Origin: Patescibacteria group bacterium
GTDB lineage: Bacteria > Patescibacteria > UBA1384 > CAILIB01
NCBI GenBank assembly: GCA_020696955.1
Contig: JAJFBK010000013.1
Coordinates: forward strand, 1 to 11,890
Length of the DNA: 11,890 nt
Reading direction: 5' to 3'
Shown here: piece after piece, positions 1,053 through 7,845 of the stretch
How the letters are laid out: every line of letters begins with the position of its first letter
Numbering within the stretch: position 1 is the first letter of the stretch
Translations under genes and position numbers: made by a program
Notes under the pieces: model-generated
The model's database searches: none
What the model saw: only the letters and a program-made list of their open reading frames with translations
What the model was told of the DNA's origin: nothing

Positions 1053-1070
1053 TGGCGGAGAGGCCGGGAT
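1053..1070 (-). repeat. 18-bp copy of the 3' end of tRNA-Ser(GCU), including CCA
   Basis: The minus strand reads ATCCCGGCCTCTCCGCCA, identical to tRNA-Ser(GCU) nucleotides 59-76 (1196-1213): the last two T-loop bases, the T-stem 3' strand, the acceptor 3' strand, the discriminator G and CCA. Identity stops on both sides after exactly 18 bp. The rest of the tRNA is absent, so this is not a second functional tRNA. It lies 143 bp downstream of the parent tRNA in direct orientation. An attachment-site scar or a retrocopied tRNA end are the leading explanations. Confidence 0.9.
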
Positions 1071-1152
1071 GACGCTCAAGCTCCGCTTTCGCTAACCTTT
1101 CCTCTTTTGAAGTGGAAGGAAAGGTCGAACGGTTCGAATCCCAACCTTTTTC

Positions 1153-1193
1153 AACAAAACAAAATGAGACCACCCAGGGGTGGTCTCATTTTG
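1153..1193 (-). terminator. Rho-independent terminator of tRNA-Ser(GCU)
   Basis: There is a perfect 16-bp inverted repeat (1160-1175 with 1178-1193) around a 2-nt centre. On the minus strand it begins 2 nt after the tRNA CCA and runs into a T-rich tail (CATTTTGTTTTGTTG). Its arm is also A/T-symmetric, so it might act in both directions. Confidence 0.85.
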
Positions 1194-1195
1194 TC

Positions 1196-1285
1196 TGGCG
1201 GAGAGGCCGGGATTCGAACCCGGGAACCCGTTTCCGAGTTAACTCGTTAGCAGTGAGTCGCTTTCGACCACTCAGCCACCTCTCC
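1196..1285 (-). tRNA. tRNA-Ser (anticodon GCU), CCA encoded
   Basis: This is a 90-nt class II tRNA. The acceptor stem is GGAGAGG/CCTCTCC with discriminator G and an encoded CCA (1196-1198). The D-arm is GCTGAGTGGTCGAAAGC, the anticodon loop CTGCTAA, and the long variable arm AACTCG-GAAA-CGGGTT gives six pairs and a GNRA loop. The T-arm is CCGGG-TTCGAAT-CCCGG. The long variable arm and GCU anticodon identify serine for AGC/AGU codons. One oddity is the anticodon-stem closing pair, A31 opposite C39. The unit has its own promoter (1301-1329) and terminator. Confidence 0.97.
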
Positions 1286-5341: not shown

Positions 5342-5920
5342 TCATAAGACGGTAACGGCAAAGTCTCTTACGCTGATACCTGAGGCAGCTACCACTTTCT
5401 CTACCCGGTTCCAGTCAGTAGTAGCCAGGTCATTTTCTACAAAGTTTATGCACTCTGCTATCGTGCAGTCCGGATTCCGGGAGCTCATTTCCAGGGCGAC
5501 TCCTACTCTGTCCAAGTCCCAAATAATAGGGTGCTGCTTCCATTTCATGAGGGTTAGGGCGCGAGTAACGAAGACGCTGCTGTAGCTTTCAGAAAAGATT
5601 TGGATGCCGAATAGCTCCCAGATTTGTTGAGGATCAGGATCCTTTTCCTGGCTGTTAAAAAATTGATGAGTAATTCTTTCAGACAGCCGTGCGCTAGGAG
5701 GCATGGCCTTTATCAGTGCGCTCAATTCTTCACCGATGACTCTTCCCATTGGGGAGCTAAGAAATCTGGTGTAGTACTCTGGCTCTTGCTCAAGAAGAAT
5801 TGCCTCCTGGCCAAGTATTTCCTCGTGTGACTTAAAATTAGTACGAACAGCGGGATAAACCCGTAAGGTCTGGGAAAGTGCAAACGCCCTGTATTGGGCG
5901 CGTGGTTTTACGGTACTCAT
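5342..5920 (-). CDS. Soluble protein of unknown function (192 aa)
   Basis: No signal peptide or membrane segment is seen. The sequence is mixed alpha-helical, with an acidic, charged middle (NSQEKDPDPQQIWELFG) and a C-terminal part containing IIWDLDRVGVALEMSSRNPDC. I do not recognise the family. It is expressed as a single gene: a promoter-like pair lies at 5961-5988, a perfect AGGAGG (5926-5931) sits 5 nt before the ATG, and a strong terminator follows the stop. The strong ribosome binding site stands out in a window where most genes have none. It lies downstream of the putative ADP-ribosyltransferase gene pair, on the same strand, but beyond a terminator, so it is a separate transcription unit. 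Confidence 0.8.
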   Translation of the reverse strand: MSTVKPRAQYRAFALSQTLRVYPAVRTNFKSHEEILGQEAILLEQEPEYYTRFLSSPMGRVIGEELSALIKAMPPSARLSERITHQFFNSQEKDPDPQQIWELFGIQIFSESYSSVFVTRALTLMKWKQHPIIWDLDRVGVALEMSSRNPDCTIAECINFVENDLATTDWNRVEKVVAASGISVRDFAVTVL

Positions 5921-5960
5921 GATTTCCTCCTCAGGATTTTCAAGATACTGCCATACTTAA

Positions 5961-5988
5961 GCTATATCATGAAATGCAGGAAAGGCAA
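5961..5988 (-). promoter_or_regulatory. Promoter of the 192-aa gene
   Basis: The minus strand shows a -35 TTGCCT (5983-5988), a 16-bp spacer and a -10 TATAGC (5961-5966). The leader would be about 35 nt and carries the AGGAGG site. Confidence 0.5.
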
Positions 5989-6004
5989 TAAATAATTCTT
6001 TAAT

Positions 6005-6041
6005 AAAAAAAACGATCCAACTGCATAGGAATTGGATCGTT
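6005..6041 (-). terminator. Rho-independent terminator after the 181-aa gene
   Basis: A perfect 10-bp stem (AACGATCCAA, 6011-6020, with TTGGATCGTT, 6032-6041) and an 11-nt loop is followed on the minus strand by eight T residues (6005-6012, the first two shared with the stem). It lies 12 nt after the stop at 6054. Confidence 0.93.
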
Positions 6042-6053
6042 GAGACGTGAGGG

Positions 6054-6599
6054 TTACGAAATGTCCCGGGTAAATGTTTGGGTGGGAACTAGGCCTTGTG
6101 CGGTAAGGATAGCGACTGGCCTGCCTGATTCATCCACAACTTCGGTTTCGTTGCAGGCTATTTCGACGGCGATATCGATACAGTAGGAAGCCAGGTTATT
6201 CGCCAGTGTGATGACCCCTTCGGAGTTTGCTATTTCTACCGCTCTCTTTATGCCATCTGCGTAGACACCAATTTTGGTAAGAATCTCACCGGTAACTGGA
6301 AAGTGCTTCGCTAAATCCAAAGCTTCATTAACGAGGGGGCCGACTGAGGGGTTGGGGCCACCGATTTTTGCCCATAACCTGGCAAGCTCAGAAGCTTTTC
6401 TTCGGAAGTCTTCCTGGGTTTGTTGACCGAGCTTTTTCTGAAGTAGCTGTGTTTTCACAATATTCGCCTCCGGATTTCCGTTGAGTAATGCCTGGGCATA
6501 TCTCAACAAGTGGTCGAATAATACCAGGATGTGAAGAATTTTCAACCTAGAGAGGGTTTCTTGTAGGTAAAGCTGGGCCATCCATTCAGAGCACTGCAA
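6054..6599 (-). CDS. Helical protein of unknown function downstream of the ART-like gene
   Basis: The protein is about 181 residues and mostly alpha-helical with Leu/Ala-rich stretches (ALLNGNPEANIVKTQLLQKK; ASELARLWAKIGG), then a small strand-like C-terminus (EVVDESGRPVAILTAQG). No membrane segment or signal peptide is evident. The start is uncertain: TTG at 6599 is used here; ATG at 6581 lacks a ribosome binding site; ATT at 6608 has AAAGGA at the ideal 5-nt distance, whereas TTG is 14 nt away. It begins only about 10-20 nt after the stop of the ART-like gene and ends in a strong terminator, so the two form an operon. A partner or immunity role for the upstream enzyme is plausible from position only; I do not recognise the family. 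Confidence 0.72.
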   Translation of the reverse strand: MQCSEWMAQLYLQETLSRLKILHILVLFDHLLRYAQALLNGNPEANIVKTQLLQKKLGQQTQEDFRRKASELARLWAKIGGPNPSVGPLVNEALDLAKHFPVTGEILTKIGVYADGIKRAVEIANSEGVITLANNLASYCIDIAVEIACNETEVVDESGRPVAILTAQGLVPTQTFTRDIS

Positions 6600-6620
6600 T
6601 GCCCGAATTTGATTCCTTTG

Positions 6621-7463
6621 TTAGGCTTCGTTCTCACTTGAGAGGCCGAGATCTTCCTTGCTAACGCCTAACAAATCGTGCAAGTACTGAAATAACTCCT
6701 CAGGCTGGTTATTTGGGAAGTGTGCAATTATCTCATTTGGTGAAATAGTGTCAGGAACAAGGTATTCTTCTTCGTCCAAGCCGTAGAGGTCAATTTCTTT
6801 TGGACGATTGACTATAGAGTCGGTAGGTACCCCTATCACGTATATATGGTATTGGCTGCGCTCTTCTTCTGTGGCCTGATTTCCTGTTCCTGCTTGAGCG
6901 CAAGGTATGTTTGTAGTAGTCGATATGAAAGAAGATCGGCCAACTGCGCTCTGATTATTTGCTAGTTCATCCGCAATATTTGAAGTACTTAGCTCTTTTT
7001 CTCGCCATTTTTCTCCGTATAAGAGAAGGTTGGCATCCTGGGGAGATCTTAATTCTTCGGTAAGCATCTTCGTGGTGCGTTTTAGATACGCATAAGCATA
7101 CGAATAAAGGCCTTTTCTCTCTATTCCTTGATAGTCACCTCGAAGCACTATCATCTTTCCGTCCTTAATAAATTTTGGATTCAATTCTGGTTTCCATTTC
7201 TCAAACTGTAGCTCGCCTATAGAGCTTCGGGGTGGATAGTGATGCTCGGCAAGTATGTCTTGAGGTTTGTGTTCTGATTCAAAAACCTCTTTTCGACTGA
7301 TCAAAGCCATCAATTCAGGATCCTGACTAACTTCTTTTGTGTAAGTTTCCCAAATTGACTCAAGTCTCATCGTTTGTTCCTCGGGTGTCTCGGTAGCAGT
7401 AGGTTCTTGTGATGGGGCAGCAATTAGTTCTGTCTGGTTTGGAATACCTGATTCTTTGAACAT
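6621..7463 (-). CDS. Putative mono-ADP-ribosyltransferase (ART-fold, R-S-E class)
   Basis: This 280-residue protein has an N-terminal polar/helical region (about 1-95) and an ART-like domain (about 100-250). Visible motifs in order are MIVLRGD (R108, the NAD-binding Arg), SSFISTTTN (S181-T182-T183, the central S-T-T strand), YHIYVIGVP (205-213), then DEEEYLVPDTISPNEII, where E231-x-E233 fits the ExE catalytic turn of arginine-specific enzymes and the trailing 'vP..I.p.eI' pattern is typical of this superfamily. Such enzymes transfer ADP-ribose from NAD to proteins, DNA or small molecules and often serve as toxins. There is no signal peptide, so delivery or an intracellular role is open. It is first in a probable operon with the 181-aa gene, and starts 85 bp beyond the tRNA-Ser(UGA) 3'-end copy. 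The ATG has no Shine-Dalgarno. Confidence 0.75.
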   Translation of the reverse strand: MFKESGIPNQTELIAAPSQEPTATETPEEQTMRLESIWETYTKEVSQDPELMALISRKEVFESEHKPQDILAEHHYPPRSSIGELQFEKWKPELNPKFIKDGKMIVLRGDYQGIERKGLYSYAYAYLKRTTKMLTEELRSPQDANLLLYGEKWREKELSTSNIADELANNQSAVGRSSFISTTTNIPCAQAGTGNQATEEERSQYHIYVIGVPTDSIVNRPKEIDLYGLDEEEYLVPDTISPNEIIAHFPNNQPEELFQYLHDLLGVSKEDLGLSSENEA

Positions 7464-7489
7464 TCGAAAAGTTAGGTATGAGTAAGCAA

Positions 7490-7495
7490 ATCATA
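7490..7495 (-). promoter_or_regulatory. Candidate -10 box for the ART-like operon
   Basis: TATGAT on the minus strand lies about 27 nt before the ATG at 7463. A weak -35-like TGGCCT lies 17 bp upstream within the hairpin at 7511-7548. GGAGG with ATG (7494-7503) overlaps this box but is out of frame with the ART-like gene. Confidence 0.3.
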
Positions 7496-7510
7496 CTTCC
7501 TCCCGCCAAC

Positions 7511-7548
7511 AAAGGCCAGCAATCACCTTACGGTAATTCCTGGCCTTT
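7511..7548 (-). repeat. Long stem-loop directly after the tRNA-Ser(UGA) 3'-end copy
   Basis: AAAGGCCAG/CTGGCCTTT gives 9 perfect pairs, then one opposed pair of C bases (G on the minus strand), then 7 more pairs (one G-U on the minus strand) closed by GTAA on the minus strand, a GNRA tetraloop. The arm begins with the final A of the tRNA-end copy. No T-tract follows on the minus strand, so it is not a classical terminator; an RNA-protecting or processing hairpin is possible. Confidence 0.75.
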
Positions 7549-7565
7549 GGCGGAAGGGGAGAGAT
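7546..7565 (-). repeat. 20-bp copy of the 3' end of tRNA-Ser(UGA), including CCA
   Basis: The minus strand reads ATCTCTCCCCTTCCGCCA followed by AA, identical to 7699-7718. The tRNA-derived part is 18 nt, nucleotides 59-76 of tRNA-Ser(UGA); two more A residues after CCA also match. Upstream of A59 identity ends, and no D-arm or anticodon arm of a second tRNA is found. It lies 153 bp downstream of the parent in direct orientation. The internal boundary is the same as at 1053-1070, although the sequences differ. Confidence 0.9.
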
Positions 7566-7700
7566 GTTCGGATCTTTTAGCGGCAGTTGAATCCTCACGG
7601 CTTTCTCGACCTTGCGAGAAGCGCCATCGAACTCTAACGAGCTCAAATTCTCCTGTCCCAACCAAAAGAAAAACTGCCACTTTCGTGACAGCCTTTCTTT
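7548..7700 (-). other. tRNA-Ser(UGA) downstream module ending in a tRNA 3'-end copy
   Basis: This 153-bp stretch has no credible protein gene. From the tRNA it holds the tRNA terminator, GGTTGGGA (7663-7656), a stem-loop GGC-TTTCTCG with CGAGAA-GCC (7599-7625), and the tRNA-end copy. The plus-strand segment at about 7639-7668 (ending CCAACCAAAAG) loosely resembles the tRNA's own T-arm to CCA sequence in inverted orientation, as is also the case in the first module. The order of elements matches 1053-1195, although overall sequence similarity is low. Confidence 0.6.
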
Positions 7701-7703
7701 TGG
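7662..7703 (-). terminator. Rho-independent terminator of tRNA-Ser(UGA)
   Basis: On the minus strand the stem starts at the tRNA CCA: CCAAAAGAAA pairs with TTTCTTTTGG (10 bp), then an AA/CC internal mismatch, then CTGTCAC/GTGGCAG (7 pairs, one G-U) closed by a GAAA tetraloop. The core stem is followed by TTTTTCTTTT. The outer stem competes with the mature tRNA 3' end. Confidence 0.85.
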
Positions 7704-7786
7704 CGGAAGGGGAGAGATTCGAACTCTCGGGACTTTCATCCGACGGTTTTCAAGACCGTTGCATTAGACCACTCTGCCACCCTTCC
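7701..7786 (-). tRNA. tRNA-Ser (anticodon UGA), CCA encoded
   Basis: This is an 86-nt class II tRNA. The acceptor stem is GGAAGGG/CCCTTCC with discriminator G and an encoded CCA (7701-7703). The anticodon stem is ACGGT/ACCGT with loop CTTGAAA (anticodon TGA), the variable arm GGAT-GAAA-GTCC, and the T-arm GAGAG-TTCGAAT-CTCTC. It reads UCA and, by wobble, other UCN codons. It has its own consensus-like promoter and a terminator that begins at the CCA. Confidence 0.97.
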
Positions 7787-7816
7787 AAACGGTTGCTTAA
7801 AAGCTAACGCACAGCG

Positions 7817-7845
7817 AATATATCATTTACAGGTTATTTCGTCAA
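7817..7845 (-). promoter_or_regulatory. Sigma-70 promoter of tRNA-Ser(UGA)
   Basis: The minus strand shows TTGACG (7840-7845), a 17-bp spacer and TATATT (7817-7822), close to consensus. The -35 box overlaps the last codons of the gene ending at 7834. The predicted leader before the tRNA is about 24 nt. Confidence 0.75.

Follow-up and report, generated by a model that had tools for sequence, protein, structure and literature searches.

Two serine tRNA genes followed by exact copies of their own 3' ends, probably the tails of short structured elements of rtT type

Results

Both tRNA-Ser genes are followed by a copy of their own tail

The window, by which we mean the whole 11,890-base stretch analysed here, contains two tRNA genes according to ARAGORN, both for serine and both on the minus strand: tRNA-Ser(UGA) at 7701..7786, which also matches Rfam RF00005 with 59.6 bits, and tRNA-Ser(GCU) at 1196..1285. 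In the numbering used, the T-loop covers nt 54-60, the T-stem 61-65 and the acceptor strand 66-72, followed by position 73 and CCA; nt 59-76 thus occupy 7701-7718 in the UGA gene and 1196-1213 in the GCU gene. Sequence matching placed an exact copy of this 18-nt tail downstream of each gene and on the same strand, at 7548..7565 (minus strand) for tRNA-Ser(UGA) and at 1053..1070 (minus strand) for tRNA-Ser(GCU). The spacing from tRNA to copy is 135 nt (UGA) and 125 nt (GCU), corresponding to elements of 153 and 143 nt with the tail included. An exact tail running from nt 58 or 59 to CCA, on the tRNA strand and less than 200 nt downstream, is therefore present at both loci, and besides each tRNA and its single copy neither tail recurs in the window with up to 4 mismatches.

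An earlier note made from this sequence had described a 20-bp match between 7546-7565 and 7699-7718, which we verified, two additional bases of the match falling past the CCA, and had delimited the tRNA-derived part as nt 59 through CCA, which is exact at 7548-7565. Its statement that the copy is specific to its own tRNA applies to both loci, each copy matching its own gene and not the other, and UGA and GCU stand as two independent cases with a common 58|59 boundary. With uniform base composition, a given 18-mer is expected by chance 4e-9 times in 283 downstream positions; with two such loci and the same pattern in further genomes, we agree with the note that chance is very unlikely.

Several simpler descriptions of these stretches were tried and rejected. 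That one window locus was copied from the other received no support, as their best local alignment scores 24, equal to the 95th percentile of 300 shuffles, and the tails differ, and a remote common origin of the two stretches is possible. Neither ARAGORN nor Rfam reported a second tRNA at the copies, as a decayed gene might have produced, and the weak Rfam matches (sX4, SpF41, plastid UTRs) cover the tRNA's own T-arm or gene. A search of the UGA stretch for a known phage or plasmid piece gave just short weak matches. Behind the UGA element, three consecutive minus-strand ORFs (5342-7463) were without a match in Pfam or PHROGs at the thresholds applied, and the one at 6054-6599 has a single weak NCBIfam match below cut-off (E 0.034).

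The intervening DNA has a tRNA-specific layout

The order of features is identical at both loci: tRNA, terminator, antisense splint of the T-arm, left copy, body and copy of nt 59-76. Behind tRNA-Ser(UGA), a terminator-like hairpin with a T tract, recognised from the fold and the letters, lies directly after the CCA (7664..7700, minus strand, as are all features of both loci). It is followed by the splint GGAGA (7649..7653), which in the fold forms P1 with part of the tail copy and is the weak part of this locus, and by hairpin P2, TTGAGCTC-GTTA-GAGTTCGA, with 8 bp in the fold (7627..7646). The left copy, found by sequence match, is 9 nt long, equals tRNA nt 50-58 (AGAGTTCGA) and contains the 3' arm of P2 (7627-7635); a body of 61 nt (7566..7626) leads from it to the tail copy. 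Directly behind the copied CCA, folding predicts a second hairpin with a T tract (7511..7547).

Behind tRNA-Ser(GCU), the terminator-like hairpin identified by folding occupies 1158..1195 and the splint, GGTTGGGAT, 1138..1146; the latter can form 9 pairs, wobbles allowed, with the first nine letters of the tail copy. P2 is TCGAA-CCG-TTCGA (1125..1137), the left copy GTTCGA equals tRNA nt 53-58 and consists of the P2 3' arm plus the preceding G (1125-1130), and the body measures 54 nt (1071..1124). Neither window locus shows a repeated terminator or tandem unit past the distal tail: the second UGA hairpin has no likeness to the first terminator (similarity score 9, shuffled 95% 13) and the GCU locus scores 10 against 11.

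In inverted orientation, the GCU stretch matches its tRNA over at most 12 nt, the T-arm segment GGGATTCGAACC (1132-1143), a length reached by 0/100 shuffles; in direct orientation, the UGA stretch matches its tRNA over at most 9 nt, reached in 1/100 shuffles. The stretch behind each terminator is predicted to fold together with the tail copy. When the duplex of body and tail was compared with shuffled sequences, 175/500 were as good at UGA and 23/500 at GCU, against 0, 3 and 0 of 500 for three E. coli rtT units. Splint-tail pairing was accordingly rejected as a universal rule, being true of rtT, marginal at GCU and absent at UGA.

We combined left copy, hairpin and splint into a layout score, which we devised with the cases already in view. 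The window loci score 20 and 20.5, values attained by 0/4000 dinucleotide shuffles each, and both show the left copy ending at nt 57-58 as the 3' arm of a hairpin with an adjoining splint, a combination scored post hoc. Of 303 control flanks, taken from tRNA genes of two Clostridia genomes and of viral contigs, none reached 20 and one reached 18.5. With the two window tRNAs swapped, the loci still score 16 and 16, so that part of the layout signal is the common T-loop.

The layout recurs in the rtT repeats of E. coli

The earlier note had overlooked both this folded intervening DNA, with its extra tRNA-specific segments, and the known tyrT/rtT repeats of E. coli. RtT has been described as an enterobacterial curiosity confined to one tRNA locus. 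In E. coli K-12, three repeats of tRNA-Tyr nt 58-76, spaced 178 nt apart, lie behind tyrV, and one more occupies the interval from tyrT to tyrV. The units obtained layout scores of 18.5, 18.5, 18.5 and 23, with 0/200 shuffles as high in each case, and the end of the annotated small RNA rttR falls on the first copied CCA (L023 2567). A 159-nt rtT body was matched in 4680/5426 E. coli genomes, at a median of 2 and a maximum of 9 places. A 175-bp VNTR in rtT RNA has been listed between two Salmonella Paratyphi A strains (PMC2658671).

The window loci share with RtT RNA (rttR; Rfam RF00391) an own tail behind the tRNA (nt 58-76 in rtT) at a similar spacing (159 nt in rtT), an antisense splint, a left copy (AAGGTTCG(A) in rtT), a hairpin body and a tail ending at CCA. 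They differ in that the rtT tRNA is a tyrosine tRNA, that rtT forms a tandem array (three copies in K-12) with another body, and that rtT overlaps the annotated tpr gene. RF00391 itself has no match in the window, where the Rfam gathering scan gives tRNA only, nor is RtT among the Rfam matches to E 10 at 7480-7820 and 980-1310.

A survey of tRNA flanks finds own-tail copies in a Clostridia genome

As a negative control, we surveyed the tRNA loci of three genomes reached via relatives of the window's UppP protein, the nearest of which is 67% identical, together with viral contigs. A free own-tail copy of at least 12 nt was found behind 5/117 surveyed tRNAs (105 of them with at least 300 nt downstream), all five in one genome, G003, whose locus is titled Clostridia bacterium RGIG1666. 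These copies follow tRNA-Lys(CTT) (14 nt), Lys(TTT) (19 nt), Pro(TGG) (18 nt), Thr(TGT) (19 nt) and Glu(CTC) (18 nt); the four full ones begin at nt 58 or 59 with spacers of 146-186 nt, and the 14-nt copy has a spacer of 141. Past the second terminator of a tRNA-Lys(CTT) (L050) we also noticed CCTTCAGGGACTCAAACCCC, which approximates the reverse complement of its T-arm and acceptor strand.

None of 231 viral-contig tRNAs had an own-tail copy outside another tRNA, and the exact UGA pattern gave 0 matches in the viral contigs. A degenerate pattern gave 18 loci there, none exact (3 to 8 mismatches), and at 15/18 the second tail lies within a neighbouring called tRNA, the exceptions being L005, L011 and L015. 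In the last of these (5620-5796), a lone tRNA-Ser is followed by a near copy of its tail with 3 mismatches, in no called tRNA.

One body family carries the tails of many tRNAs

Used as a DNA query, the Pro element matched in 12/20 genomes of the family to which that Clostridia genome belongs, mostly behind tRNAs, the matches ending in ...GGCTGT or similar and being followed by the host tRNA's own tail. In an alignment of 18 elements (A1), 22/47 predicted pairs are maintained through changes on both sides; the splint-tail helix is among the covarying pairs, and the pair at nt 59 is CG in 10 elements, UA in 4, AU in 3 and broken in 1. A covariance model, R1, identified 60 places in 16/20 family genomes and gave matches in 26/95 genomes of the order. 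We examined the best 48 of these 60 places, the other 12 being the weakest or partial ones (E above 1.4e-12).

At 38/48 places a same-strand tRNA lies within 700 nt upstream, and these tRNAs represent 16 anticodons and 8 amino-acid classes. The own tail is reproduced in 18/18 letters at 27/38 and with at most one mismatch at 31/38, the remaining seven having 2 to 8. The R1 tail was placed at the best own-tail match and the tails of other tRNAs were compared at that position, which makes this control asymmetric; the 27 exact own-tail matches are independent of that placement and span 14 tRNA kinds. In 23/27 the copy starts at nt 59 (18 nt); the remaining four measure 19, 20, 36 and 37 nt. Both longer copies (36-37 nt) follow tRNA-Pro(GGG), at L111 1487-1668 and L112 1482-1662, and start in the variable region, the splint there approximating the reverse complement around the shifted boundary. 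Of the ten places lacking a tRNA, five have an end that differs by no more than one letter from a known Met, Pro, Ser or Lys tail, and seven have under about 800 bases of upstream sequence.

Past the distal tail of the Clostridia elements, a further copy of the terminator, in many cases together with some of the splint or body, is present at 18/29 flanked places under a lenient rule, at 15 of them with a score of at least 35; these comparisons covered places with no more than 2 tail mismatches and without long spacers. The repeat stops at varying points, and the arrangement looks like a complete unit plus a partial one.

The window loci share with the R1 family the own tail from nt 59, a splint opposite the tail (its pairing marginal at GCU and absent at UGA), the P2 hairpin and the terminator before the element. 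The R1 elements differ in their longer body, which spans about 110 nt between left copy and tail, in a left copy that usually covers only nt 51-55 and in often repeating the terminator past the tail. The layout score fits this family less well, chiefly because its left copy stops at nt 55: 8/31 elements exceed all 40 of their own shuffles and several score zero. R1 gave 0 matches in the window up to E 10 and none at E. coli tyrT. Since R1 has no match in the window, the putative kinship of the window loci with rtT and the Clostridia elements is one of architecture.

At L106 (1273-1346, minus strand), a Gut-1 RNA (RF01706, 71.5 bits) lies about 160 nt past the tRNA-Met element.

Unlike bodies, patchy occupancy and switching between tRNAs

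Other bodies occur in the same arrangement. The Lys(TTT) element belongs to a separate body family, with GAGTCGT before the tail and matches in 4/95 genomes; in G033 a body of this type follows tRNA-Ser(GGA) with an exact tail and a terminator repeated past it. In G017 (L192 1773-2221), two tandem units of 224 nt follow tRNA-Ser(GCU), each with an exact tail and with a different body, and the copies match from about nt 56 (about 21 nt). As the Lys(TTT)/Ser(GGA) and G017 bodies differ, one layout is common to several bodies that do not resemble each other. At L211, L213, L214 and L215, of which L213-L215 are the ends of three G003 contigs, a body of the second type precedes a tail-like ...GGGGAGCCA, and the corresponding tRNA lies outside the available sequence.

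Occupancy is patchy among relatives. No copy was found at 14/16 Ser(GCU) loci of relatives within the available bases (less than 300 nt at three of them), and the relative G006 (L205) has a Ser(GCU) copy with a single mismatch. For tRNA-Ser(UGA), an element lies directly behind the gene in G015 and in 0/16 other genomes read; since the relatives have Ser(UGA) beside Ser(GCU), with no clear synteny with G015, this comparison is one of presence and absence.

To follow inheritance within the R1 family we used a tree of 46 bodies, two of the 48 being too short to include, in which 11/42 inner branches are well supported. Anticodon labels require 25 changes on this tree (minimum 15, shuffled mean 30.1, 1/200 as low) and genome labels 29 (minimum 15, shuffled mean 34.0, 0/200 as low). 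There is some vertical inheritance, as in the Leu-CAG and Pro-CGG pairs, plus much switching.

Discussion

The rtT layout of the window loci is supported by the observations above, and it is probable, in our judgement, that each window copy forms the 3' terminus of a short, structured and non-coding element of rtT type nested at a tRNA 3' end. The earlier note had pointed to a process acting repeatedly at serine tRNA 3' ends. Repeated action at tRNA 3' ends stands, and the restriction to serine falls with the 14 tRNA kinds of the Clostridia family: serine is an accident of this window, and the mechanism is visible at many tRNA kinds. The contrary outcome that the note had envisaged, copies here alone and variable boundaries elsewhere, is, in the genomes searched, mostly contradicted by the Clostridia Lys(TTT), Pro, Thr and Glu loci and by E. 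coli Tyr, the exceptions to the boundary being both Pro(GGG) loci and a Ser(GCU) array (from about nt 56).

One way to view such an element is as the 3' half of a tRNA in which a body intervenes at 58|59, with the upstream splint facing both halves. Its RNA would be made by read-through from the tRNA promoter and would mature at the CCA, as the annotated end of rttR suggests. Entry into tRNA genes would take place at 58|59 and leave the tRNA with an intact 3' end, after which the element would be amplified or decay as one to three tandem units. We saw no gene for an enzyme of the proposed insertion.

More tentatively, and with less than even confidence, we suggest that these loci may belong to a widespread protein-less class that colonises many tRNA kinds, mostly at 58|59, each member carrying or copying its own nt 59-76 and a matching splint. 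In that case rtT would be a local case, the window loci a lineage with other bodies, and every move would involve taking tail and splint from the target; we know of no integrase, transposon or intron that does this. In the titles and abstract openings of the literature searched, which mostly excluded subscription papers, we found no description of a general class of such elements. Should the layout prove general, it would define tRNA-nested elements as a class and place the tyrT repeats within a wider frame. Own tail from nt 58-59, splint and left copy would then together provide a signature, one that annotation and island-finding would overlook or mistake for scars of integration.

The attachment-site scar is the strongest competitor, though we think it unlikely: an integrase island would have entered the tRNA-Ser 3' end, restored it and then lost its interior. 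A tRNA gene with a displaced 3' fragment is the signature used by Islander, and the T loop is named there as one crossover region (PMC4383910). The window loci fit this signature, with an intact tRNA, the displaced fragment downstream, and the correct side and orientation. The same source discards candidates that are shorter than 2 kb or lack an integrase and filters for 2-200 kb (PMC4383910), whereas the window spacers are 125 and 135 nt, contain an internal tRNA-specific splint and left copy, and are accompanied by no integrase match among the window proteins scanned (Pfam, PHROGs, NCBIfam). Two scars of nearly equal size with an identical inner layout would be a coincidence, and a fixed attP tail fails for one body with 14 different own tails; the own tails at 14 tRNA kinds are why an integrase island fits poorly.

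Immobility is the core of another account, which we consider improbable, namely that an RNA with a regulatory or processing role, coupled to its tRNA, is vertically inherited and keeps its exact tail through selection or gene conversion. The covarying structure is what such an RNA would show, the few orthologous pairs at the same tRNA across genomes (Leu-CAG, Pro-CGG) agree with it, and rttR is annotated as a small RNA; against this, the bodies do not track tRNA kind (25 changes versus the minimum of 15) and occupancy is patchy, with 1/17 Ser(UGA) loci read being occupied.

A very low probability attaches to reverse transcription that starts at the tRNA 3' end or passes across it and halts at a modified A58 to give 18 nt, with the cDNA recombined behind the tRNA. 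It would supply each copy with its own tRNA's tail, and the usual 59-76 length is that of a retroviral primer-binding site. However, the E. coli copies begin at nt 58 and E. coli, to our knowledge, lacks m1A58; the copies of 36-37 nt at Pro(GGG) and of about 21 nt at Ser(GCU) in G017 do not have this length, the terminator repeat past the distal tail is left unexplained, and no reverse transcriptase match was found among the window proteins scanned. Finally, chance or an assembly artefact, for which it can be said that the window is a single metagenome contig, is scarcely credible with 4e-9 expected at each of two loci and the pattern repeated in other genomes.

Two further features of the Clostridia elements deserve mention beside the nested-element reading. 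A dispersed repeat, CGTCGGAACAAG...CTTGTTCCGATTTTTT, stands directly behind the native or copied CCA at several places (L102, L105, L106, L123, L130, L131 and others); it is the sequence after the distal tail in 9/31 places, all with no more than 2 tail mismatches and without long spacers, and follows the tRNA itself in L103 and L131, and may be another small repeat settling at CCA ends. In alignment A1, columns 52-56 and 134-140 and the loop at 102-105 mostly form hairpin loops of three letters, variable in sequence, with GCGAAGC recurrent. Such triloops are very stable in single-stranded DNA, and their presence may hint at a DNA stage.
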